25,759 nt of DNA from a virus, in the IMG/VR virus record IMGVR_UViG_3300007512_000180, positions 1 to 25,759 of that record; one strand, 5' to 3'. The stretch's first letter is position 1. Every line of letters begins with the position of its first letter. A program made the position numbers and the translations under genes. Positions 1 through 24,899 of the stretch are shown here, in pieces. Below the pieces are notes generated by a model. That model did not search any database. It was not told the origin of the DNA and worked only from the letters and a program-made list of their open reading frames with translations.

Positions 1-1854
1 TTACAAAAACTTACTGAAGGTATTGTTTCACGCGATATGAGTAAGGAAGGTGCTGCTCTCCTCAATAAATGGGAGAAAACAGGTCTTCTTGAAGGTATTC
101 AAGGTGACAATGCTAAAAATAACATGGCACGATTACTTGAAAATCAAGCCAAAGAGCTTCTACGAGAAGCTGCTTCAACGATGAATGGTGGTGATGTCGA
201 GGGCTTTGCAGCCGTTGCATTCCCAATTGTTCGTCGCGTATTCGGTTCTTTAATCGCTAACGAGCTTGTTAGCGTACAGCCGATGAGTCTGCCCAGTGGT
301 CTCATCTTCTTCCTTGACTTTACGTTTGCTGCAGATGCTGCAGGTGGACGATTGGGTCTTGGTAGTGGATCTCTCTACGGTGGTGGAGTCATTGGTCAGC
401 AGGTAACAGGTGGTGTTGACTTGGGTGATCATAAGGATGCAGGCCGCGCCGATGGTGCAGGTCAGTTCTATGATCTCGTCAATGGTTTTTCTTCACCGAC
501 TGCAAGCTATACTACTGCTCAAACTGGAAAGATTACCTGCCTATTCTCTGGTACCTATGGTGCGCAACATGGAGATACAGCCGTCAATGGCGGTATCGGC
601 ATGGGTAGTTCGGTACAGGGCACAACCAAAGAACAGATTGATCATGTATATCGTGTTTTGCAATATGACCCGGCATTTGTGTCAGGTACAACTAAATTTG
701 CAATTGGTACGTTGAACGTTGACACCCTGACAGGTTCCAACACCAGCACTACCTACAATAAAGATGATCTTGTTGCTATTCACTTGGGTGTCACCGGTAC
801 AGAAACCCACATCCGTCGACTGACTCAGTTCAGTGGCGCTGTTGGTGCTGTTCCATCACGTAGCTCTGCAGGACTTCTGGTTGTTATTGCAACCGATACA
901 GGCACAAAGCACGTTGGTGCAAACGCTTGTCGTATGGCCTTAGAGGATCATACTGGCGGCCACACTTTGGCATTCCCAATTATCGACAACTTTAACGGTA
1001 GTCCAAAAGCTCCCGATGGCAGCTCCATTGGTGCAGTTGTTGGTGCAGATGACTGGGGTCTTGAGAATAATACTAATATTCCCGAGATTAACCTTAAGGT
1101 CGACTCGGTATCCGTCACGGCGGTCACTAAAAAGCTTAAAGCTAAGTGGACACCGGAACTTGGCCAAGACCTTAATGCTTACCACAATTTGGATGCAGAG
1201 GTAGAACTCACTTCAATTCTTTCTGAGCAGATTGCTCTTGAAATTGATCGTGAAATTCTCGAAGATCTTGTACGCGGTAGCAACGCTGCTACTTACTACT
1301 GGTCACGCTCCCCCGGATTGTTCGTGGATAAGTTAACTGGCGTTGAAAAAGGTGCCGCATCTGCTGCTCCCGACTTCACCGGTACCGTTTCCGAGTGGTA
1401 CGAGACCCTAGGCGAAACCATCAATGATGTTTCCGCCCAGATTCACCGTAAAACTCTACGCGGTGGAGCCAACTTTATTGTAACCTCTCCAGAGGTTGCT
1501 AATATTCTTGAGTTCACTAGTGGATTCCGAGCTAACGTCACTCATGACGACAGCAAAGGTACCGCTGGTACGCAACAAGTTGGTTCTTTGAGCAAGCGTT
1601 ATGACGTATATGTTGATCCTTACTTCCCACGAAACGTTGTTCTTGTGGGACGCAAAGGTAGCAGCTTCTTAGAGAGTGGCTATGTTTACTCTCCTTATGT
1701 GCCGCTGCAAGTCACTCCTACCATCTTTGGTACGGAAGACTTCGTGCCACGTAAGGGCGTCATGACTCGATATGCCAAGAAGATGGTTCGACCGGATATG
1801 TACGGTCTTGTTATCTGCCGCGGCCTGTTGGGTGAAAGTGGTGCTACTAGCTAG
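1..1854 (+). CDS. Major capsid protein, gp23-like (5' partial)
   Basis: This is the main shell protein of the phage head, assembled as hexamers on a scaffold and normally trimmed by the prohead protease. The reading frame is open from base 1 (LQKLTEGIVSRD precedes the first ATG at 37) and no Shine-Dalgarno stands before that ATG, so the true start is probably upstream of the window; 617 residues are visible. The N-terminal pattern NKWEKTGLLEGI, then MARLLENQ, then FPIVRRVFGSLIANELVSVQ follows the order of T4 gp23 (521 residues). LLRE at residues 41-44 from the first ATG fits the T4 protease rule (L/I)-x-E, giving a predicted cut near base 169. A rho-independent terminator follows. Family assignment is firm; start and cleavage site are inferences. 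Confidence 0.9.
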   Translation, partial: LQKLTEGIVSRDMSKEGAALLNKWEKTGLLEGIQGDNAKNNMARLLENQAKELLREAASTMNGGDVEGFAAVAFPIVRRVFGSLIANELVSVQPMSLPSGLIFFLDFTFAADAAGGRLGLGSGSLYGGGVIGQQVTGGVDLGDHKDAGRADGAGQFYDLVNGFSSPTASYTTAQTGKITCLFSGTYGAQHGDTAVNGGIGMGSSVQGTTKEQIDHVYRVLQYDPAFVSGTTKFAIGTLNVDTLTGSNTSTTYNKDDLVAIHLGVTGTETHIRRLTQFSGAVGAVPSRSSAGLLVVIATDTGTKHVGANACRMALEDHTGGHTLAFPIIDNFNGSPKAPDGSSIGAVVGADDWGLENNTNIPEINLKVDSVSVTAVTKKLKAKWTPELGQDLNAYHNLDAEVELTSILSEQIALEIDREILEDLVRGSNAATYYWSRSPGLFVDKLTGVEKGAASAAPDFTGTVSEWYETLGETINDVSAQIHRKTLRGGANFIVTSPEVANILEFTSGFRANVTHDDSKGTAGTQQVGSLSKRYDVYVDPYFPRNVVLVGRKGSSFLESGYVYSPYVPLQVTPTIFGTEDFVPRKGVMTRYAKKMVRPDMYGLVICRGLLGESGATS

Positions 1855-5855: not shown

Positions 5856-8800
5856 ATGTCTTCACGCAAATTCAAATTTATATCACCGGGAGTTTTTATC
5901 AATGAAATTGATAACTCTCAACTTCCCGGCCTACCAGCGGACGTTGGACCCGCTCTAATTGGTAGATTCGAAAAGGGTCCAGCACTAAAACCAACTCAAG
6001 TAAACTCATTTGAAGAGTTTGTTAGTATTTTTGGCAAACCTATTCCGGGCGGCAAAGGCGGTGATGTTTTTCGTGAAGGCAACTACACTGCTCCTACGTA
6101 CGCAGCATACGCAGCGCAAGCATACCTTAGAAATAATTCCCCAGTAACAGTTGTACGTCTCGTTGGCGATACAAACAAAGACGCAACTGGCGAAACTGCA
6201 TTTGCAGGCTGGAAAACAACCAATACAACCCCAAACACAACATATACATCCAATGGTGGTGCGTTTGGCTTGTTTGTTGGTGAGCATGCCGGCGCCCCGC
6301 AAAGTTTTACAATTAGCGTAGCACTATCAGGCGCACACCTCATCGCCGGCTTCAACGGAGCCGTTGGTTCTGCCAACGTAATAAGCCTTTCTAGTGGTAG
6401 CCATGATGATTATGTTGTGATCACTGGTTCTCTAGGTATGCACAATCACTCTGCTTCTTTCGGAACCGGCTCTTACTCGGCAACAACAACCAATGCGTTA
6501 ATTGCTACTAACATCGCAGCTGCGGTAAATTCAGGCACAACTGCATTCCTTGGCGGGGGCCACGGATGGTCTGCTGCAGCCAGTGATGGCACTGTAACAT
6601 TTACGCCACCAAGCTCAGATGGTCAAGTTATCTTTAATTCATGGATGGCGATTACTTCTTCCGGCCCATCCGGAAGTGACGGGTCGGGCCATAGACTCTT
6701 AATGGAGACGGGATCTCTTGATGGAACTGTCGCAAACGCAGCAACTGCAAGCGTTACCGGAAGTACATTCCACTATGCCAGCGGTACATTGGCTGCTGTT
6801 TGGTATGTCAACAACGGCTCGATAGCCCTTTCTGGTACATCAATGCCGCACTACAATGTTAGCAGTTCTATTACTGCAAGCGCCGGCGCAATGATACGAC
6901 CGGTGGACAACAATCGAACATTTAAGGCAGTCATAACAAGCAATGGCTCCACTGTTACGGAAGAGACATCTTTTGACTTTAACGTTAATTCCCCCCGCTT
7001 TGTCCGTAAAAGATTTAACACTAATCCGACTTTGACAAATTCAACAATTGTCGAGAATAGTGTAAATTATTTCCTAGGAGAGACTTATGAGGGTCACGTG
7101 AACAGCACGTTAACCCAAACAAGCAGAAATAATGTTTATGGAATTATTCTTCCATTGACAACTCCGGATGCCACAACGGCAGTTGGAGGTGACTTTAAGT
7201 ATAGCTTCAGCAAAATGTCTACTAGTCAAGGCGCTTTAGCCAAGACCGGTTGGTTCATTTCGCAGGACCTTTCTACAAATTATAGCGATTATACGCCATC
7301 AAGCATGACAAAGCTGTTTCGCATTGTTGGTCGACTAACTCGCGAAGATGTCCAGAGAAACGTTAAGGTTTCTATCCAAGATATTAGAAAATCCACGGAT
7401 CCGAATGATCAGTATGGTACATTCTCAGTGGTTCTTCGAGAAATCCAAGACACAGATGCTGCACCGGTTATTTTGGAACAATTTAATAATTGTAACTTAA
7501 ACCCTGCATCTGATAACTATATCGCCAAGAAGATTGGTGACAAGTATGAAACTTGGGATTATCCCTCAAGAGCTTATAAGGAGTATGGCGACTATACCAA
7601 CAATTCTGATTATGTGAGGGTAGAGATGGCATCAGATGTTAACGATGCAGTTACAGACCCATTATTGCTTCCATTTGGTGTGTTTGGTCCCCCCAGATAC
7701 ATTGGATACGCAATTGCTCTCACAGGAGCACTCCGAGATTACAATGACAGCTCAGATGAAACTACTGCTGGTACCTTTGTTTACCGCGGTTACAATTATG
7801 GCGGCGCCCGATTCGACTCCCCGGGAGATGCATCAATTGTTGCGGTCACGGGATCATCTGCTCACTTAAGTAGTGTTTCTGGTTCTGGTATCATTCCTAC
7901 AAAATATAAGTTCCCCGAGCTTCGTTTAAGAATTTCAAGCTCCGAGGGCTTTGTAATTGATCCCACAGACGCTTATTTCGGAGTGGATACGACTTATAAT
8001 TCTAATGAATTTGATAAAACAACACTCGACGTTATTCGAGCTAAACCGGATACCATAGATTCTCATACTGCTGATAGTACAACCACAGAGAATTCTTGGG
8101 TATTCTCATTAGATAATATTAGAAACGCAAAAGTGTCGGCATCTCACTATACTTCTGATTACGCCGTTAACGCAGTATACGATGCTCAGGCAAGAACTAG
8201 TGAGTTTGCTTATAACAATCATACTGGTTCTGCAGGGGAAACAAATGTTCCAATCAACTCAGCAACCGCTTCGTACGAAAATGTATTGGATGCTGGATTT
8301 GATAGGTTCACCACATGTTTACATGGAGGCTTTGACGCTTTGGATGTTACTGAGCGTGAACCGTTCCGTAATACATTGATTGACGGAGAGTCAGAAACTG
8401 CAAACTACGCTTTCAATTCTCTGACTGTTGCGATTGATTCATTACGAGACCCAGAACGAGTGGAATACAATATGGTAGCGATGCCCGGTGTTACTAATAA
8501 TAGCTTAAATAGCAAACTTGTTAGGACTGCTGAGAGCCGCGGAGACGCCCTCGCAATTATTGACCCACAAGGTGGCTATGTTCCCGATACAGAAGGAACA
8601 GATTCCATTGAAAATAGAATTGGGTCTGTAGCGAGCACGGTTAATAACATGCAACAAAACTTGAAATTAAATTCAAGTTACGGTGCAGCTTATTACCCAT
8701 GGGTACAGATTCGCGATAATGTCAATGCAGCAACTTTATGGGCACCCCCATCGGTGGCAGCAATTGGAGCAATGGCCTATTCTGAAGCAGTTTCAGAACT

Positions 8801-9323
8801 TTGGTTTGCCCCGGCCGGCTTCACTCGCGGTGGATTGTCCACAAACAATGCCGCTGGAGTTCCAGTCATTGGAGTTCGCCAGCGACTCACTTCGAAAGAT
8901 CGTGATAAATTGTATGAAAACAACATTAATCCGATTGCAAGCTTCCCAGCCGAGGGTATTGTCATCTTTGGTCAGAAAACGCTTCAAACGACGCCTTCTG
9001 CCCTTGACAGGATTAATGTTCGAAGATTGACTATCTTCTTGAAACGAGAAATTTCAAGAATTGCAGCTACTCTGTTATTTGACCAAAATGTCAAGATTAC
9101 TTGGAATAAATTCCGAGGTCAGGCAGAAAACTTCTTGAGCGGTGTAAAATCTGGTCTAGGGTTGACTGATTATAAAGTTATTTTAGACGAGACAACAACT
9201 ACACCAGACCTTGTTGACAGAAATATACTTTATGCCAAGATCTTCGTAAAACCGGCACGTGCCATTGAATTTATTGCCATCGACTTTATTATCACAGATA
9301 GTGGAGCAGCATTTGATGATTAA
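5856..9323 (+). CDS. Tail sheath protein, gp18-like, enlarged
   Basis: Forms the contractile sheath around the tail tube. The N-terminus (FISPGVFINEIDNS, then GPALIGRFEKGPA, then FVSIFGKP and AAYLRNNSPVTVVRLVGD by about residue 105) is the classic sheath opening. The C-terminal third, from about residue 810 (GGFDALDVTEREPF, then AIIDPQGGY, YYPWVQIRD, WAPPSVAAIGAMA, RLTIFLKREI) carries the conserved inner sheath domain. At 1155 residues it is far longer than T4 gp18 (659). Residues about 110-380 are a Gly/Ser/Thr/Asn-rich beta region with NALIATNIAAAVNSG and DGTVTFTPPSSDG, resembling repeat domains inserted into other phage structural proteins; this part is probably displayed on the sheath surface. 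Good AAGGAG ribosome site. The tube gene follows 47 nt later. Confidence 0.92.
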   Translation: MSSRKFKFISPGVFINEIDNSQLPGLPADVGPALIGRFEKGPALKPTQVNSFEEFVSIFGKPIPGGKGGDVFREGNYTAPTYAAYAAQAYLRNNSPVTVVRLVGDTNKDATGETAFAGWKTTNTTPNTTYTSNGGAFGLFVGEHAGAPQSFTISVALSGAHLIAGFNGAVGSANVISLSSGSHDDYVVITGSLGMHNHSASFGTGSYSATTTNALIATNIAAAVNSGTTAFLGGGHGWSAAASDGTVTFTPPSSDGQVIFNSWMAITSSGPSGSDGSGHRLLMETGSLDGTVANAATASVTGSTFHYASGTLAAVWYVNNGSIALSGTSMPHYNVSSSITASAGAMIRPVDNNRTFKAVITSNGSTVTEETSFDFNVNSPRFVRKRFNTNPTLTNSTIVENSVNYFLGETYEGHVNSTLTQTSRNNVYGIILPLTTPDATTAVGGDFKYSFSKMSTSQGALAKTGWFISQDLSTNYSDYTPSSMTKLFRIVGRLTREDVQRNVKVSIQDIRKSTDPNDQYGTFSVVLREIQDTDAAPVILEQFNNCNLNPASDNYIAKKIGDKYETWDYPSRAYKEYGDYTNNSDYVRVEMASDVNDAVTDPLLLPFGVFGPPRYIGYAIALTGALRDYNDSSDETTAGTFVYRGYNYGGARFDSPGDASIVAVTGSSAHLSSVSGSGIIPTKYKFPELRLRISSSEGFVIDPTDAYFGVDTTYNSNEFDKTTLDVIRAKPDTIDSHTADSTTTENSWVFSLDNIRNAKVSASHYTSDYAVNAVYDAQARTSEFAYNNHTGSAGETNVPINSATASYENVLDAGFDRFTTCLHGGFDALDVTEREPFRNTLIDGESETANYAFNSLTVAIDSLRDPERVEYNMVAMPGVTNNSLNSKLVRTAESRGDALAIIDPQGGYVPDTEGTDSIENRIGSVASTVNNMQQNLKLNSSYGAAYYPWVQIRDNVNAATLWAPPSVAAIGAMAYSEAVSELWFAPAGFTRGGLSTNNAAGVPVIGVRQRLTSKDRDKLYENNINPIASFPAEGIVIFGQKTLQTTPSALDRINVRRLTIFLKREISRIAATLLFDQNVKITWNKFRGQAENFLSGVKSGLGLTDYKVILDETTTTPDLVDRNILYAKIFVKPARAIEFIAIDFIITDSGAAFDD

Positions 9324-17366: not shown

Positions 17367-18560
17367 ATGCTCAGCAATAACTCATCTAAGGCTTCTGAAT
17401 TTTTTAAAAGCAAGAAAAAATATGATGAAACTTTTCCTGTTGTAAACAAAAACAGGCTTTATGATTTTTGGTATGATAAACCATACTTTGGAAAAGTAAA
17501 CTCTAAGGGAATTACAATTTACCCCAAAGAAGAATTTTTGGGCAATCTGGACGAACAAGGCCAATATAAGGCACTAGACTTTGTTGCGGAGGCTTTTTTA
17601 GACCTTCAGAACTTTGTGCGCCGGTCCAAAGAAAGAGGTGTTTATCCAAATGATTTTCTTGAAGATTTTTCTCCCAAAAGAGCATGGAAATCCCTTCCTG
17701 TAGAGTATGACAAGTATTTTGAAGATTACATATTTAATCCTTTTTTAAACACTTATATGTTAGATAAAAAAATTAAGACATTTGACGACTTTGTTAACGA
17801 ATACATTAGGTATGCGAGGACTGTTGCCCCGGATGTCTCTATCACGCAAAATGAGTTTATACTGGGAAGTAATTGCACGAATAAAATATCAGGACTCATT
17901 ATAGATCTGATAGCCGATGATCATGGCGACAATGATCTAAAAGCAGAGGAGTACTTGAGAAAGTTTGAATACTTAAATTTTATTAATCCTTGTAGAAACT
18001 TTGGCTTCAGAATAAACAAGCATGCGCCATGGCAGCTCATAGCGGACCTAACCACCGAAGAGAACAACCCTATGCAAAAGTACGCAGAGGATCGTAACGT
18101 CTCTCTAAAAGACAATAGCTTTTTCGAAACTTATTACTACACCGCCTCAGAAATTGACTTTAATAATTTTAAGAGATACCTATATATTCTCTATACAAGC
18201 TATTATTCGGTTAACTCCACGTACGATAAAATAAAGGTTTCGCTATCCTCGATGAAATACGGCTCCCCACTTTTTTCAGATTACAAAACTAAAATTACGA
18301 AGGAGCTTCCAGTTGAGATGCCAGCCAGAACTTACGATGAATTTCAAGAGAAGTACGGCGACGAATATTTTTTAAAACTATATTTCAAAATAAGGTTGAT
18401 CGAAAACAGCAAAGAACACAGGTACACTGACTTAGTTTATAATGTGCAAAGTTATTATAGTCTAGGTGGCACCACACAGGCTTTAGAATATATTGACTCA
18501 AAGCTAATAAATTCAAAGATATACACCGAGAAGGACAAAGAAGTATTCTTTTTTGCTTGA
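17367..18560 (+). CDS. Probable virion structural protein, function unknown
   Basis: A 397-residue protein rich in Tyr, Phe, Asn and Lys, with no membrane segment or signal peptide. Notable segments are ALDFVAEAFLDLQNFVRR (65-85), PFLNTYMLDKKIKTFDDFV (about 125-145), the conserved-looking FGFRINKHAPWQLIADLTTE (about 212-232), and TYYYTASEIDFNNFKRYLY. The APWxLIADL element is familiar to me from large structural proteins of marine T4-like phages, but this memory is unverified. It is the last gene of the virion module and is preceded by a CTATTTAT copy and by AAAGGGA at 17349-17355, 12 nt before the ATG. A sigma70-like promoter follows, so it ends the late block. Tail, baseplate or fibre-attachment roles are all possible. 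Confidence 0.5.
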   Translation: MLSNNSSKASEFFKSKKKYDETFPVVNKNRLYDFWYDKPYFGKVNSKGITIYPKEEFLGNLDEQGQYKALDFVAEAFLDLQNFVRRSKERGVYPNDFLEDFSPKRAWKSLPVEYDKYFEDYIFNPFLNTYMLDKKIKTFDDFVNEYIRYARTVAPDVSITQNEFILGSNCTNKISGLIIDLIADDHGDNDLKAEEYLRKFEYLNFINPCRNFGFRINKHAPWQLIADLTTEENNPMQKYAEDRNVSLKDNSFFETYYYTASEIDFNNFKRYLYILYTSYYSVNSTYDKIKVSLSSMKYGSPLFSDYKTKITKELPVEMPARTYDEFQEKYGDEYFLKLYFKIRLIENSKEHRYTDLVYNVQSYYSLGGTTQALEYIDSKLINSKIYTEKDKEVFFFA

Positions 18561-18591: not shown

Positions 18592-19773
18592 ATGCTGTTT
18601 CAAACGTTTGACGAAAAAAAAGATTGCTTCATGGTTTATAAAGACTCTGATTTTCATAAAAATATTACAGATGACTGCGACAAGACATGGGCATACGCAG
18701 CTTATTTAAAAAAAATGGACGTTGACTATGCAAACTTGTTTGTCTCTGGAAAATCTCTAGAAGAGGTGTGCCCTGAAGACTGGCGAGATAATTTGAAGAA
18801 CATAGAGGACAGGATAAAGGCTGTTCTGAAATCAAGCACAAAGGTGGGAATGAACCTAAAAGATGTATGTCTCTATGATTTAATTCCGGAGCACATGTTG
18901 AGAACTTGGGCAACGGTCAAAAATAACATATGTGAGCACGTTTTCGAAACATATCCCAAACCAAAAAATTATGACTTGTTATTGAAAGTAGAAAGGATGA
19001 TCACAGAAATAAAGCAGCAGCCGCTCGATATAGAGCCGGAAGAGATTGTGATTACAAGTGTGCAGGATAGGAACACATATAACACTGTAGAGGGCTGTAA
19101 TAGGACTATAACATACGATCAATTCAAAACCAAGACTGGGCGACTAAGCACAAAAAAGAACTCCTTTCCTGTGATGACTCTGGCAAAGAAATATCGCAAT
19201 GTTCTCAGACCAACAAACGATTGGCTCTTCGAGATTGATTTTAATGCTTGTGAGTTAAGAGTGGCACTTGGGCTGCTTGGACAGGAACAACCAGAAGAGG
19301 ATCTTCACGACTGGAACCTAGAGAACGTCTTTCTTAGGTCAAAAGATCGCGAAAATGCCAAAAAAAGGATCTTTGCTTGGCTTTATAACCCAAAAAGCAG
19401 TGAAGATAGGGTCGGGAAGATTTACGACCGAGAAAAGATCAAAAGATTGCATTTTATGGATAATAAAGTAACGACTGTTTTTGGTAGAGAAATCGAGTGT
19501 GATGAGCACCACGCAGTAAGTTATATAATACAGTCAACTGCCGCGGATCTTCTATTCGAACAAATGCACAAAGTGTGGGAGCACTTGGAGCGCCGAAAGA
19601 GTTTTATTAAGTTTTGCAATCATGACTCGCTTATAATTGATTTTTCGGAAGAAGACCAATATCTTCTAAATGATATAAAACACGTCTTCAGTGATACGCG
19701 CTTTGGAAAGTTTAAAGTTAATTGTAGCGCGGGAAAAAACTGGCTTGATATGAAAAAGCTTAACATTAATTAA
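18592..19773 (+). CDS. Reduced family A DNA polymerase-like protein
   Basis: A 393-residue protein carrying the palm and fingers motifs of DNA polymerase I in order: TGRLST (182-187), motif A WLFEIDFNACELR with catalytic Asp216 and Glu221, motif B-like RENAKKRIFAWLY (253-265), QSTAADLL (314-321), and motif C FCNHDSLIIDF with His344-Asp345. Both catalytic aspartates are kept; the residue after HD is Ser instead of the usual Glu. The spacing Asp216-Asp345 is 129 residues, shorter than the 177 of E. coli Pol I (705 to 882), so the fingers are trimmed. Residues 1-170 resemble no exonuclease domain and hold no DxE nuclease motif I can see. T4-like phages normally replicate with family B gp43, so this may be an accessory polymerase or the main one; the window cannot tell. 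No Shine-Dalgarno precedes 18592. Confidence 0.78.
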   Translation: MLFQTFDEKKDCFMVYKDSDFHKNITDDCDKTWAYAAYLKKMDVDYANLFVSGKSLEEVCPEDWRDNLKNIEDRIKAVLKSSTKVGMNLKDVCLYDLIPEHMLRTWATVKNNICEHVFETYPKPKNYDLLLKVERMITEIKQQPLDIEPEEIVITSVQDRNTYNTVEGCNRTITYDQFKTKTGRLSTKKNSFPVMTLAKKYRNVLRPTNDWLFEIDFNACELRVALGLLGQEQPEEDLHDWNLENVFLRSKDRENAKKRIFAWLYNPKSSEDRVGKIYDREKIKRLHFMDNKVTTVFGREIECDEHHAVSYIIQSTAADLLFEQMHKVWEHLERRKSFIKFCNHDSLIIDFSEEDQYLLNDIKHVFSDTRFGKFKVNCSAGKNWLDMKKLNIN

Positions 19774-19782
19774 GGGGTATTG

Positions 19783-20628
19783 ATGCAAACTGTTATTGGT
19801 TTAGGACAGGCCGGATGCAATATTGCTGACTGCATGAAATTATATCCACAGTACGATGTGCTGAAAATTGACGTTGGTCTTAAGAGGACAAAAAAAACTC
19901 TGGGACTGAAAGAGCAAGCAACTCCGGAGTTATATGAAGAAAAAATACCCAGAACACTAAATAAATTTCTGGAAGGCGTAGGAGACGAAACCTTATTCAT
20001 TACAAGTTGCGGCTTTGTTTCCGGCGCAACTTTGCGTATTCTAGAAAAAATAAAAGACAAAACAAAAATAACATTAATGTATATAATCCCCGACAAAGAG
20101 GGAATGTCAGAAATTCAAAAATTACAAAACAACACTTTATTTAATGTTCTCCAGCAGTTCGCAAGATCGGCACTGTTTGAGAAAATTATTTTAGTTGACA
20201 ACAATAAATTATCTGATATAATAGGCCCTGTTCCGATTTTAAATTATTGGGAAAGTATAAATCAGATGATTGCTTCAACTTATCACATGATTAATGTTTT
20301 TGAACATAGCATGCCAGTTTTTACAACGTTTACAAAGCGTATAAATACGGCACGCATGTGTACAATTGGGTTTAATAAATTTGATGAGGAAGAAGAAAAA
20401 TACTTTTTTAACCTTGACATTCCAAGAGAAAAAAGGTATTATTATGCTATACCTCATAGTGCCCTAGAACAGGACCCTATGTTGATGAATAAAATTAAAG
20501 AACAGGTTAAAAGATCAGTAGAGCATGACAGAATGAAGGTGGGATACGCAGTATACTCCACACAATATGATCAATCATACATCTACTGTGAAAGTAACAG
20601 TTCGTTAATACAAAAACTAGTATCTTAA
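19783..20628 (+). CDS. Divergent tubulin/FtsZ-superfamily protein
   Basis: A 281-residue protein. ATG at 19783 is favoured over TTG at 19780 because AAGGGG lies 5 nt upstream. The N-terminus VIGLGQAGCNIAD matches the tubulin/FtsZ T1 loop (GQAG-x-N). LFITSCGFVSGATLRILEKI (71-90) sits where the G-box GGGTG(S/T)G should be but keeps only part of its glycines. IIPDKEG then a helix and ILVDNNKLSDIIG, then NYWESINQMIASTYHMINVF (155-174) parallel FtsZ strand S6, the NDKLL segment and helix H7. The C-terminal domain is only about 100 residues. Fold assignment is good; GTP hydrolysis is doubtful because of the broken G-box. It lies 9 nt after the polymerase-like gene and 41 nt before the SSB gene. Roles could be filament formation, DNA positioning or interference with host division. 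Confidence 0.6.
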   Translation: MQTVIGLGQAGCNIADCMKLYPQYDVLKIDVGLKRTKKTLGLKEQATPELYEEKIPRTLNKFLEGVGDETLFITSCGFVSGATLRILEKIKDKTKITLMYIIPDKEGMSEIQKLQNNTLFNVLQQFARSALFEKIILVDNNKLSDIIGPVPILNYWESINQMIASTYHMINVFEHSMPVFTTFTKRINTARMCTIGFNKFDEEEEKYFFNLDIPREKRYYYAIPHSALEQDPMLMNKIKEQVKRSVEHDRMKVGYAVYSTQYDQSYIYCESNSSLIQKLVS

Positions 20629-20669: not shown

Positions 20670-21413
20670 ATGGCTATTGATATGGAAAAAATGCGCGCTC
20701 GACAAGTGGCATTGAAAAACAACGGAAATGGTAACTCAAATCGCTTTTGGCGTCCCCAAGATGGAGAACAAACAATTCGTATTGTATGCTCTTCTGATGG
20801 AGATCCCTTCCGTGATTATTGGTTTCATTACAACGTTGGCGACCAACCCGGCTTTTTGAGCCCTAAGCGTAATTTTGGAGAGGATTGCCCTCTAGATAAT
20901 TATGTGAAGCAGCTTTGGAAAGAGGGCAGTGAAGAATCTAAACGAGTTGCCAAAAAACTTAGTGCTCGCCAGCGCTTTTTTGCTCCCGTAGTTGTGCGAG
21001 GGGAAGAAAGTGAGGGGGTTAAGGTTTGGGGCTTCGGCAAACGAACCTACGAGACGCTTCTGGGGCTTGTTTTAAATCCTGAGTATGGAGACATCACGGA
21101 TCCTGAGTCAGGCACAGATTTGGTTATTGGATACGGAAAACCTGCAGGCGCATCTTTTCCTGAAACCAAAATTACGCCACGTCGTAAATCAACGCCGCTT
21201 CACAAAGACTCCGACCGCGTTGTCGAGTTGATGGAAGATGTTCCAGATTTTGAAGAGGTCTTTGAGTCCGGTCGAAAGACCCCTCAAGAGGTTGAGGATA
21301 TTCTCGCTGCTTATCTGAACAGCGAAGATTCATCGGATGAACCCGCACCGGCAGCCGCCGACACAGTTAATGGAAATAGCGTAGATAAGGCTTTTAATGA
21401 GCTTCTAGGTTAA
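20670..21413 (+). CDS. Single-stranded DNA-binding protein, gp32-like
   Basis: A 247-residue protein with AAGGAG 9 nt before its ATG. It coats ssDNA during replication and recombination and normally interacts with UvsX and the replisome. The basic N-terminus, FWRPQDGEQTIRIVCSS, FRDYWFHYNVG, FGEDCPLDNYVKQLWKEG, the aromatic core RQRFFAPVVVR to VWGFGKRTYETLLGLV, and the PESGTDLVIGYGK turn follow the T4 gp32 OB-fold order. T4 gp32 is 301 residues with a zinc finger (H64, C77, C87, C90); here His53 and a single Cys73 remain, so the zinc site is not conserved. The C-terminal tail (about 210-247) is acidic and ends DKAFNELLG, like other SSB tips used for partner binding. Confidence 0.82.
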   Translation: MAIDMEKMRARQVALKNNGNGNSNRFWRPQDGEQTIRIVCSSDGDPFRDYWFHYNVGDQPGFLSPKRNFGEDCPLDNYVKQLWKEGSEESKRVAKKLSARQRFFAPVVVRGEESEGVKVWGFGKRTYETLLGLVLNPEYGDITDPESGTDLVIGYGKPAGASFPETKITPRRKSTPLHKDSDRVVELMEDVPDFEEVFESGRKTPQEVEDILAAYLNSEDSSDEPAPAAADTVNGNSVDKAFNELLG

Positions 21414-21479: not shown

Positions 21480-21761
21480 TTGTTAATAAGAGCAGTTGAA
21501 TGTAAAGATTGTGGTGATATTATTTATTCAAGGGCTGATGAAGATTTTAGAAAATGCTCGTGTGGCTCCGTAGAAGTAACAGGCGGTCACATGCACTTTA
21601 AGCACTATACTATTCCCGGTGCGAATTATGAAATTAAAAAAGTAGATGTTGATATTTCTCTTGACAAATTATATAACGATTGGTACGATATGATTGATGC
21701 TTATGGTTTAATAAAAGCAGAAGAAAGTAACACAAATAGGAGTGAAAATGGAGCTATCTAA
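21480..21761 (+). CDS. Small zinc-ribbon protein
   Basis: A 93-residue protein with a TTG start preceded by GAAAGGG about 7 nt upstream. Cysteines C8, C11, C26 and C28 (CKDCGDIIYS then FRKCSCGSVEVTGG) form a compact zinc ribbon, the pattern of a small protein family common in phages whose function I do not know. The C-terminal half is acidic with a helical DKLYNDWYDMIDAYGLIKAE. It overlaps the next gene by 14 nt. Between SSB and UvsX genes, a nucleic acid binding or regulatory role is plausible but unproven. Confidence 0.65.
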   Translation: MLIRAVECKDCGDIIYSRADEDFRKCSCGSVEVTGGHMHFKHYTIPGANYEIKKVDVDISLDKLYNDWYDMIDAYGLIKAEESNTNRSENGAI

Positions 21762-22053
21762 AAAAGTATATAAAAAAGGTGACGCAGATTTTAATAAAAG
21801 AATTAATGAGGTTGCCAAGAGATTCAAGGGCAAAGGCGGCGGACCGGAAAGTGAAACTGCTGTTAATGCCTTTAAGCAGGACATGGGCGACGGTTATGTA
21901 ACCTTTTGCTCAGACAACAGTGATATCACAAATCTGCTAACAAGAAGTAAAGGTTATGTTTTAGAGGTTACTGATTATGGAGAGAATGTCATAATTAAAC
22001 TCGATAGAAAGGGCTTCCGTAGTTGCTTTCATGCATTTAAAATTTCGAAATAA
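21748..22053 (+). CDS. Small protein of unknown function
   Basis: A 101-residue basic protein. A GTG at 21742 is in frame, but AGGAG (21738-21742) is well placed for the ATG at 21748, giving MELSKKVYKKG. The N-terminal half is helical and Lys/Arg-rich (RINEVAKRFKGKGGG), the C-terminal half looks like a small beta domain (GYVLEVTDYGENVIIKLDRK). No motif was recognised. It overlaps the zinc-ribbon gene by 14 nt and lies 11 nt before UvsX, so it is co-transcribed with recombination genes. It could bind DNA or modulate UvsX or SSB; that is guesswork. Confidence 0.6.
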   Translation: MELSKKVYKKGDADFNKRINEVAKRFKGKGGGPESETAVNAFKQDMGDGYVTFCSDNSDITNLLTRSKGYVLEVTDYGENVIIKLDRKGFRSCFHAFKISK

Positions 22054-22064
22054 GGAGAAAATCA

Positions 22065-23177
22065 ATGGCTCGTAGAAAAGAAGTAAAAGCTGGCAAACTC
22101 AGCATAGAACAAATGAGGCAGCTTATTAATAAAAAAGCCGGCATGCAGGTTGCCCACGATCTTAACGATGAAAATAACCCTACAAACGTAACCGATTGGA
22201 TTCCAACCGGCTCTCGTTGGCTGGACGGTATTATTTGCCGCGGCAAGCTGGCTGGTGTGCCTGTTGGAAAAATAACCGAAATCGCGGGACTGGAATCAAG
22301 CGGCAAGTCGTACATGGCTGCACAAATTGCAGCCAACGCTCAGAAGAAAGGAATCGATGTTGTTTATTTTGATTCTGAATCTGCATTAGATAATTCCTTC
22401 CTCACCCGTGCCGGTTGCGATGCTAGTAAAATTCTATATGTTCAGGCAACAAACGTTGAATTTGTCTTGGAGACGATAGAAGAGTTGCTAAAATCAAACG
22501 ATAACAGAATGCTGTTCATTTGGGATAGCCTAGCTTTGACTCCTTCCATCTCAGACGTAGAAGGGGATTTTAACCCTCAATCAACAATGGCGGTAAAGGC
22601 GCGCATCCTTTCTAAAGGCATGTCAAAGTTGCTTGTTTCTATTGCCAACACACAGTCAACGCTTTTGGTGTTAAACCAATTAAAAGCTAACATCACTCGT
22701 TCGCCGTCAGAGGCACTTACAACCCCATATATGACGCCGGGAGGAAAAACTCTTATCTACTCGTATTCATTGCGTGTTTGGCTTACTAGGCCAAAAGCAA
22801 AAGCCTCTTACGTTTATGACGATAAGGACTACCGAATTGGAAACACTGTGAAAGTAAAATTAGAGAAGTCTCGTTTCGGTTCGCAAGGACGCCAGTGCCA
22901 ATTTAAAATTTTGTGGGGTGACAAGGTTGGCGTACAGGACGAAGATAGCTGGTTTGATGCCATTCAATCATCGGATCTTTTAAAACGCTCTGGTGCGTGG
23001 TACGAGTTGGTTTATGACGATGGTACTACTGAAAAATTTCAATCTGCGAAGTGGTTGGATAAGTTAGAGGATAGTAAATTTAAAAATAGAGTATTACAGA
23101 TAATGGACGAAGAAATTATTAGAAAGTTTGACGAGCGCACAGGCAACGCTTCAGATTTTTATGACGAAGAAGGATAA
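22065..23177 (+). CDS. uvsX: UvsX/RecA-like recombinase
   Basis: A 370-residue strand-exchange ATPase of the T4 UvsX/RecA family (T4 UvsX is 391 residues), preceded by AAGGAG. Walker A is GLESSGKS (75-82), closely like RecA GPESSGKT; YFDSESALD (101-109) carries the conserved acidic residues after the first strand pair, and Walker B is MLFIWDSLA with Asp154. LLVLNQLKANIT and TPYMTPGGKTLIYSYSLRVW correspond to the sensor strand and L2/DNA-binding region. The C-terminal part (residues 300-370) is acidic. It promotes recombination-dependent replication and works with gp32-like SSB, encoded two genes upstream. Start at ATG 22065 is unambiguous. Annotation is secure; the gene name follows the T4 homologue. 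Confidence 0.93.
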   Translation: MARRKEVKAGKLSIEQMRQLINKKAGMQVAHDLNDENNPTNVTDWIPTGSRWLDGIICRGKLAGVPVGKITEIAGLESSGKSYMAAQIAANAQKKGIDVVYFDSESALDNSFLTRAGCDASKILYVQATNVEFVLETIEELLKSNDNRMLFIWDSLALTPSISDVEGDFNPQSTMAVKARILSKGMSKLLVSIANTQSTLLVLNQLKANITRSPSEALTTPYMTPGGKTLIYSYSLRVWLTRPKAKASYVYDDKDYRIGNTVKVKLEKSRFGSQGRQCQFKILWGDKVGVQDEDSWFDAIQSSDLLKRSGAWYELVYDDGTTEKFQSAKWLDKLEDSKFKNRVLQIMDEEIIRKFDERTGNASDFYDEEG

Positions 23178-23909: not shown

Positions 23910-24899
23910 ATGAACAAAAATAAAAACAACATAGCAAACAAAAGAGTTATGATCATAGACTCATTAAATATGTTTCTAAGATCATATATTGTCAATCCAA
24001 CGATGTCAAAAGATGGAAACCCCATCGGAGGCACCGTTGGATTTCTTAAGTCCTTACAAAAGCTTTCAAGAGAGATCAAGCCAGACGCAATTATTATGTG
24101 CTGGGACGGCAGAGGCGGCAGCAGGAAGAGAAAACAGGTAAATAAAAACTACAAAGAGGGCAGATCTCCCATTCGCTTGAACCGCAATATAAAGGTTTTA
24201 ACCGAGCAACAGGAAAACGAAAACAGAATCTGGCAGATGCACAGAACATTTGAATATCTTAACAACTTCCCAGTTATACAATTAGTTGCAGATGAGGTTG
24301 AGGCAGATGATTTGATATCTTATATCACTCGTTATTCTTGTTTTAAGGGCGATCAAAAGGTTATCATATCCAGCGATAAAGATTTCTATCAATTGTTAGA
24401 CGACAATACCATTCTTCATCGTCCCATTCAAAAGAAATTTTTAAACAAGCTCAATATTATAAAAGAGCACGGTATTCATCCAACCAACTTTGCTTTGGCA
24501 CGTGCCATCGCCGGTGACAAATCTGATAATCTTGAAGGTGTTCCGGGAGTTGGGCTAAAAACAGTTGCTAAAAGATTTACTTTCTTTGAAGAAGAAAGAG
24601 ACATCACTATGTCGGAGTTAATTGAGTTTTGTTCCAATCAAGAGAGCAAAATTAAGGCATACCAGTCTATAATAGAAAACCAAGGACTAATTAAAGAGAA
24701 CTATAGTCTTATGCAACTCTATAGTCCGAATTTGTCTATCCAGACCAAACAAAGCGTGGACTGGACCATTGGTGAATTTGAATATGAGTTTAATAAGACT
24801 GAGACAGATCTCATGATGCTTGAAGATGGCATCAGTGAAAATTATTGGTCTGACTTATTTCAAGATTTTAGGCGACTATGCCGGGATAATAAAGAATGA
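23910..24899 (+). CDS. 5'-3' exonuclease/RNase H, FEN-like
   Basis: A 329-residue nuclease of the family of T4 RNase H (305 residues) and the 5' nuclease of Pol I, which removes RNA primers and flaps. Visible active-site motifs: MIIDSLNMF with Asp17, IIMCWDG with Asp66, KQVNKNYKEGR helical arch region (75-85), VADEVEADDLI (127-136), SSDKDFYQL (154-162), and the helix-three-turn-helix GDKSDNLEGVPGVGLKTVAK (202-221). Metal ligands appear intact, so it should be active. An in-frame stop lies two codons upstream of the ATG at 23910; no clear ribosome site is present and ATG at 23949 is an alternative start. The next tiny ORF overlaps by four bases (ATGA). Confidence 0.88.
   Translation: MNKNKNNIANKRVMIIDSLNMFLRSYIVNPTMSKDGNPIGGTVGFLKSLQKLSREIKPDAIIMCWDGRGGSRKRKQVNKNYKEGRSPIRLNRNIKVLTEQQENENRIWQMHRTFEYLNNFPVIQLVADEVEADDLISYITRYSCFKGDQKVIISSDKDFYQLLDDNTILHRPIQKKFLNKLNIIKEHGIHPTNFALARAIAGDKSDNLEGVPGVGLKTVAKRFTFFEEERDITMSELIEFCSNQESKIKAYQSIIENQGLIKENYSLMQLYSPNLSIQTKQSVDWTIGEFEYEFNKTETDLMMLEDGISENYWSDLFQDFRRLCRDNKE

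Follow-up and report, generated by a model that had tools for sequence, protein, structure and literature searches.

The window analyzed here, the whole 25,759-nucleotide stretch of viral DNA (IMG/VR record IMGVR_UViG_3300007512_000180), carries T4-like virion genes for the major head protein, sheath, tube, and baseplate, together with the replication genes listed in Table 1. Directly between a family-A DNA polymerase gene (polA) and the gene for a gp32-like single-strand-binding protein (ssb) lies the open reading frame under study. It is a real gene: close relatives begin at the same ATG (MQT...), an AAGGGG sequence resembling a ribosome-binding site stands 5 nucleotides upstream of that codon, and purifying selection is strong, with dN/dS of 0.06 to 0.11 in the seven pairs of relatives for which dS could be estimated. 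The encoded protein and PolA are about equally conserved, at median identities of 45% and 46%.

Some neighboring genes have peculiarities of their own. The polymerase, in a phage with T4-like virion genes, has only 393 amino acids, which leaves no room for a separate exonuclease domain. The tail sheath protein (5856-9323) is unusually long, at 1,155 amino acids, and it is the second half that matches sheath. The gene before polA (17367-18560) encodes a 397-amino-acid protein that evolves fast (median identity, 23%), has no clear family match, and is probably structural. Two small genes at 21480-22053, one for a zinc-ribbon-like protein (CxxC..CxC) and one for a 103-amino-acid protein, follow ssb in 49 and 45, respectively, of the 127 non-redundant loci in our synteny set.

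Table 1. Positions of the tubulin-like gene, its motifs, and its neighbors in the window
Feature	Position	Strand	Evidence
T4-like major head protein	37-1854	+	phrog_138 6e-71
Family-A DNA polymerase (polA), directly upstream	18592-19773	+	Pfam DNA_pol_A 1.5e-12
Ribosome-binding-like site AAGGGG, overlapping the polA stop codon	19772-19777	+	sequence
Tubulin/FtsZ-fold protein (predicted), CDS, 281 aa	19783-20628	+	Pfam, AlphaFold2 model, fold search, dN/dS 0.06-0.11
T1 loop, residues 6-15, GLGQAGCNIA	19798-19827	+	G6, G8 invariant in 121/121
T4/G-box position, residues 75-82, SCGFVSGA, degenerate	20005-20028	+	GGGTG[ST]G in 0/121; GGSG-type common in basal clades
Promoter-like TTGACA-16-TATAAT (12/12), within tubulin-like gene	20195-20222	+	sequence, codon-shuffle test
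N140, pairing with N165 of FtsZ and the Asn in CIDN of beta-tubulin	20200-20202	+	invariant in 121/121; alignment
Central helix H7, residues 152-174, containing N160	20236-20304	+	model; N160 invariant
N160, pairing with N186 of FtsZ and the Asn in DLN of beta-tubulin	20260-20262	+	invariant in 121/121; alignment
T7-loop position, residues 175-188, without NxDxxD/E and without helix H8	20305-20346	+	N.D..[DE] in 0/121; two models
C-terminal domain, strands S7-S10 and helices, residues 192-274	20356-20604	+	two models
Promoter-like TTGACA-17-TATTAT (11/12), within tubulin-like gene	20414-20442	+	conserved in relatives
gp32-like single-strand-binding protein (ssb), directly downstream	20670-21413	+	phrog_1192 7e-25, Pfam gp32 7e-14
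UvsX/RecA-like recombinase	22065-23177	+	PHROGs/Pfam searches
5'-3' exonuclease	23910-24899	+	PHROGs/Pfam searches

The original prediction had called the product tubulin/FtsZ-like, with structure prediction and a fold search set beforehand as the test; these returned a tubulin fold over the whole length of the protein, and not solely dehydrogenase-like matches. The best Pfam family was Tubulin (PF00091; E = 1.9e-4 and 22.2 bits, below the curated cutoff of 33), which also matched 15 of 35 relatives, the best of these 35 members at E = 1.4e-4. An AlphaFold2 model of the window's protein, built on a 35-member alignment, reached a pLDDT of 91.4 and a pTM of 0.90, and its top 50 Foldseek matches in the PDB all belonged to the tubulin superfamily (best E, 4.7e-13). 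VIA-align comparisons spanned residues 1 to 281 and gave Z scores of 25.0 to CetZ, 23.8 to TubZ, 23.1 to FtsZ, and 22 to eukaryotic tubulins. A second model, of a distant-clade member about 38% identical to the first, drew on an alignment of 39 other loci, a few of them on contigs shared with the first alignment, and scored similarly (pLDDT, 93.2; pTM, 0.91; Z of 24.8 to CetZ). Both models superpose on CetZ at 2.7 to 2.9 Å over 253 to 258 residues, and both contain the N-terminal Rossmann-like GTPase domain, the central helix H7, and the C-terminal beta domain. Helices H8 and H9 are absent from the prediction, and beyond the last strand, S10, the chain continues for about 8 residues in the model of the window's protein and for about 5 in the distant one. 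Given that two models with largely different alignments both match the tubulin superfamily, we regard a complete tubulin/FtsZ fold as near certain from these predictions. At the level of sequence, a search of the PDB returned chance matches only and no tubulin, and hhalign comparisons with single FtsZ, PhuZ, and tubulin sequences were not significant (probability below 1%, with an E value of 0.07 for PhuZ).

The beginning of the protein also invites another reading, in which the ligand is not a guanine nucleotide but NAD or some other dinucleotide, bound by the Rossmann-like N-terminal part in the manner of TrkA-N domains. Of 39 distant members, 11 matched TrkA_N, the strongest at E = 5.1e-6 and above the curated cutoff, and the residue after strand 2 (D30) is mostly acidic. 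However, the match in the best member spans only residues 4 to 35 (S1-T1-H1-S2), a Rossmann-like start that is common to tubulins, and the remaining fold, including H7 and the C-terminal domain, is that of a tubulin. The invariance of N140 and N160, described below, would not be expected under NAD binding either, and we consider this reading very improbable. Since the TrkA-N match is partial and the full-length fold is that of tubulin, an identity as a dehydrogenase was rejected.

Scans of IMG/VR with a widening query returned 47, then 215, and then 390 confirmed stretches, which puts the family at no fewer than 390 stretches in that database. Its proteins are about 275 to 282 amino acids long, and each of 12 long contigs (55 to 191 kb) carries one copy of the gene. 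A tblastn search with two members against 50,697 cultured phages gave no match, and neither PHROGs nor NCBIfam held a relevant family. A scan of 84,980 prokaryote genomes found none, by means of short peptide patterns that divergent copies could escape. Profile searches of RM378, Mel-JY01, immuto, LR756508, and phiKZ found no member; a weak match to an RM378 open reading frame (E = 0.21) was taken as chance. We found no description of the family among open-licence papers.

We assessed conservation in 121 aligned members, which fall into 44 clusters when grouped at 70% identity. Ten positions carry the same residue in every member (G6, G8, Y24, E52, L84, Q124, R128, S129, N140, and N160), and the conservation of the pocket positions was equalled by only 3 of 280 shifted masks. 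Forced profile alignments to E. coli FtsZ and bovine beta-tubulin, whose sequences were checked letter by letter against the PDB, pair N140 and N160 with the Asn residues listed in Table 1, a mapping that is not significant as an alignment alone (hhalign probability below 1%) and leans on the shared fold. In FtsZ and tubulin these residues are guanine contacts (N206 and N228 in beta-tubulin).

The motifs first noticed are where they had been placed, with GQAGCNIAD at residues 8 to 16, SCGFVSGA at 75 to 82, NNKL at 140 to 143, and SINQMIASTYHMINVF at 158 to 173. The claim that the G-box has lost its core needs qualification: the box is altered, with the canonical GGGTG[ST]G in 0 of 121 members, but "lost" goes too far, because a degenerate S/G-x-G-x-I/V-S-G loop is retained at this position and both presumed guanine-contact Asn residues are kept. 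The form GGSGxISG tends to occur in basal clades and TSCGxVSG in the large clade that holds the window's protein. The T7 motif, which the original prediction did not mention, is likewise missing: N.D..[DE] follows H7 in 0 of 121 members, and no acidic residue is conserved at positions 175 to 188. The peptide INVF, which hhalign aligned to the FtsZ T7 loop, was rejected as a T7 equivalent since both models place it at the end of H7. Given that N140 and N160 are kept, nucleotide binding is plausible, and given that the G-box is never canonical and that the T7 motif and H8 are absent, canonical GTP hydrolysis appears unlikely. The family is a new one inside a known superfamily and, judged by the motifs that define each of them, is not FtsZ, TubZ, PhuZ, or CetZ.

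In 117 of 118 non-redundant loci, ssb follows the tubulin-like gene directly or one gene later, and polA lies within two genes upstream in 102 of 114. This neighborhood had been described as a T4-like replication operon, which suits the virion genes and not the polymerase, since the latter is of family A rather than of the T4 type. The nearest named cultured phages of the major head protein are Microcystis phage Mel-JY01, the Flavobacterium immuto phages, and RM378, a group termed Far-T4 (PMC4360716) for which computational analysis has made a link to Flavobacteriales (PMC13037479). An ssb-anchored scan of sister phages found the gene in 0 of 80 loci, many of which are short upstream, so that this count is not decisive. 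The expectation that the phage falls outside the PhuZ-bearing group was supported: its major capsid protein is T4-like, and an RpoB-type RNA polymerase was matched in none of seven long contigs of these phages, which may be incomplete, whereas the positive control phiKZ gave both an RpoB match and a Pfam Tubulin match (2.6e-8). Because RpoB was matched in phiKZ and not in these contigs, the phages do not look, from their gene content, like a PhuZ/phage-nucleus setting.

The fixed order of polA, the tubulin-like gene, and ssb, and the overlap between the polA stop codon and the ribosome-binding-like site, would both suit a replisome accessory that does not polymerize, in which the fold serves as a module for nucleotide binding, makes contact with the polymerase or SSB, and either monitors the supply of nucleotides or controls loading. 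The loss of T7/H8 and of a C-terminal tail points the same way. Yet the tubulin-like gene is missing from related Far-T4 phages that share these replication genes, and we know of no tubulin-fold replisome subunit; we hold such an accessory role to be unlikely, although worth serious consideration.

Two promoter-like sequences also lie within the gene. When no more than one mismatch is allowed, the site over codons 211 to 220 is present in 32 of 62 diverged loci, whereas shuffling of synonymous codons gave 2.0 on average and never more than 7. The site at codon 138 is present in 15 of 62, compared with 3.8 on average (maximum, 7). Both were noticed first and tested later in relatives of shared ancestry, so the counts are not independent, but the effect is still large. 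Among the 39 sequences with Asp at position 212, 38 use the codon GAC, which makes up 39% of Asp codons overall. The embedded sigma70-type promoters are conserved beyond the needs of the protein, and thus the fixed position before ssb, which they probably drive, is partly explicable by regulation. Consensus sigma70 promoters such as these do not fit the usual Bacteroidota promoter.

Our preferred reading, to which we assign a probability of roughly 0.42, is that the protein is a tubulin that binds guanine nucleotide, does not hydrolyze it in the canonical way, and assembles to organize phage replication; the ligand, the assembly, and the function are what we infer. The protein would be made together with the replisome and would still use the T1 loop and N140/N160 to bind guanine nucleotide. 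With a degenerate G-box and no T7/H8, the catalytic element that a neighboring subunit contributes, it would not be able to hydrolyze the nucleotide by the usual mechanism. It might self-assemble into short or static protofilaments, or into a nucleotide-gated oligomer, and such assemblies would hold or position replicating phage DNA, working much as PhuZ or TubZ do, minus the dynamics driven by hydrolysis. We count in favor of this reading the fold, the invariant N140 and N160, the single copy, the near-fixed position between polA and ssb, and the PolA-like conservation. Against it, the protein has neither T7/H8, which makes up one half of the longitudinal interface in canonical filaments, nor the H11/acidic tail of PhuZ and TubZ; the nearest cultured relatives, Mel-JY01, immuto, and RM378, do not have the gene; and the synteny with ssb may partly reflect the ssb promoters embedded in it. 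Since T7/H8 is missing and the modeled protein ends about 8 residues past its last strand, canonical filaments are doubtful. A bolder version, possible but on the unlikely side, is that this marine T4-like lineage has a GTP-binding tubulin-fold cytoskeleton of its own, which has abandoned T7 catalysis and organizes DNA replication by static or differently driven polymers, with neither a phage nucleus nor PhuZ.

The conserved face made up of the nucleotide pocket, T1, T3, and the end of H5, combined with a reduced T7 side, is also what a capping protein should have. With a single longitudinal face available for binding, a monomer of tubulin fold could cap or poison FtsZ protofilaments as a dominant negative, so that host division is blocked during phage replication, and several phages do inhibit FtsZ. 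However, identity to FtsZ is only 8 to 20% in alignments, and the gene is kept in the replication operon with PolA-like conservation across a deep family, unlike fast-evolving host-takeover DNA. We think a role as a division antagonist quite improbable.

Work on phage tubulins has so far dealt with PhuZ, from jumbo phages that form a nucleus, and with a small number of TubZ partition systems. The present family is common and unrecognized in distantly T4-like marine phages and is tied to replication genes; it keeps the predicted fold but no longer has the hydrolysis motifs. If its members assemble, tubulin-type organization of phage DNA would be widespread and would not need canonical GTP hydrolysis; if they do not, they would be a rare pseudo-GTPase of cytoskeletal fold, recruited to replication or to the control of host division.

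With PhuZ of the Chimalliviridae (phiKZ gp39 and 201phi2-1 gp59), the family shares a phage-encoded tubulin fold and a plausible link to the placement of phage DNA. PhuZ has about 315 to 330 amino acids, a filament-building C-terminal H11/acidic tail, and a catalytic Asp in T7 (PMC3678025), whereas the present proteins, at about 275 to 282, have neither tail nor T7 motif. TubZ, from Bacillus plasmids and the c-st phage, resembles them in fold (Z, 23 to 24), but the present gene adjoins polA and ssb, with no TubR-like gene recognized beside it, and its product has no C-terminal tail. CetZ and FtsZ are the best structural matches (Z, 25 and 23), yet they share only 8 to 17% identity with a family that is without the G-box and T7 motifs and without predicted H8/H9. 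The families FtsZl1 and FtsZl2 are likewise divergent members of the tubulin superfamily found by context and remote homology, although they are cellular rather than viral; both keep GGGTG(S/T)G, which was used to find FtsZl2, and FtsZl2 keeps T7 (Makarova and Koonin 2010; PMC2875224). Among uncultured phages, an FtsZ homologue has been reported in a circular AdsorpSeq phage contig (PMC7452251), and A0A6J5RW92, a protein of an uncultured member of the Caudovirales annotated as FtsZ, is much longer (452 amino acids) and only 13 to 17% identical to the present protein but has the same tubulin fold, with a TM score of 0.80.
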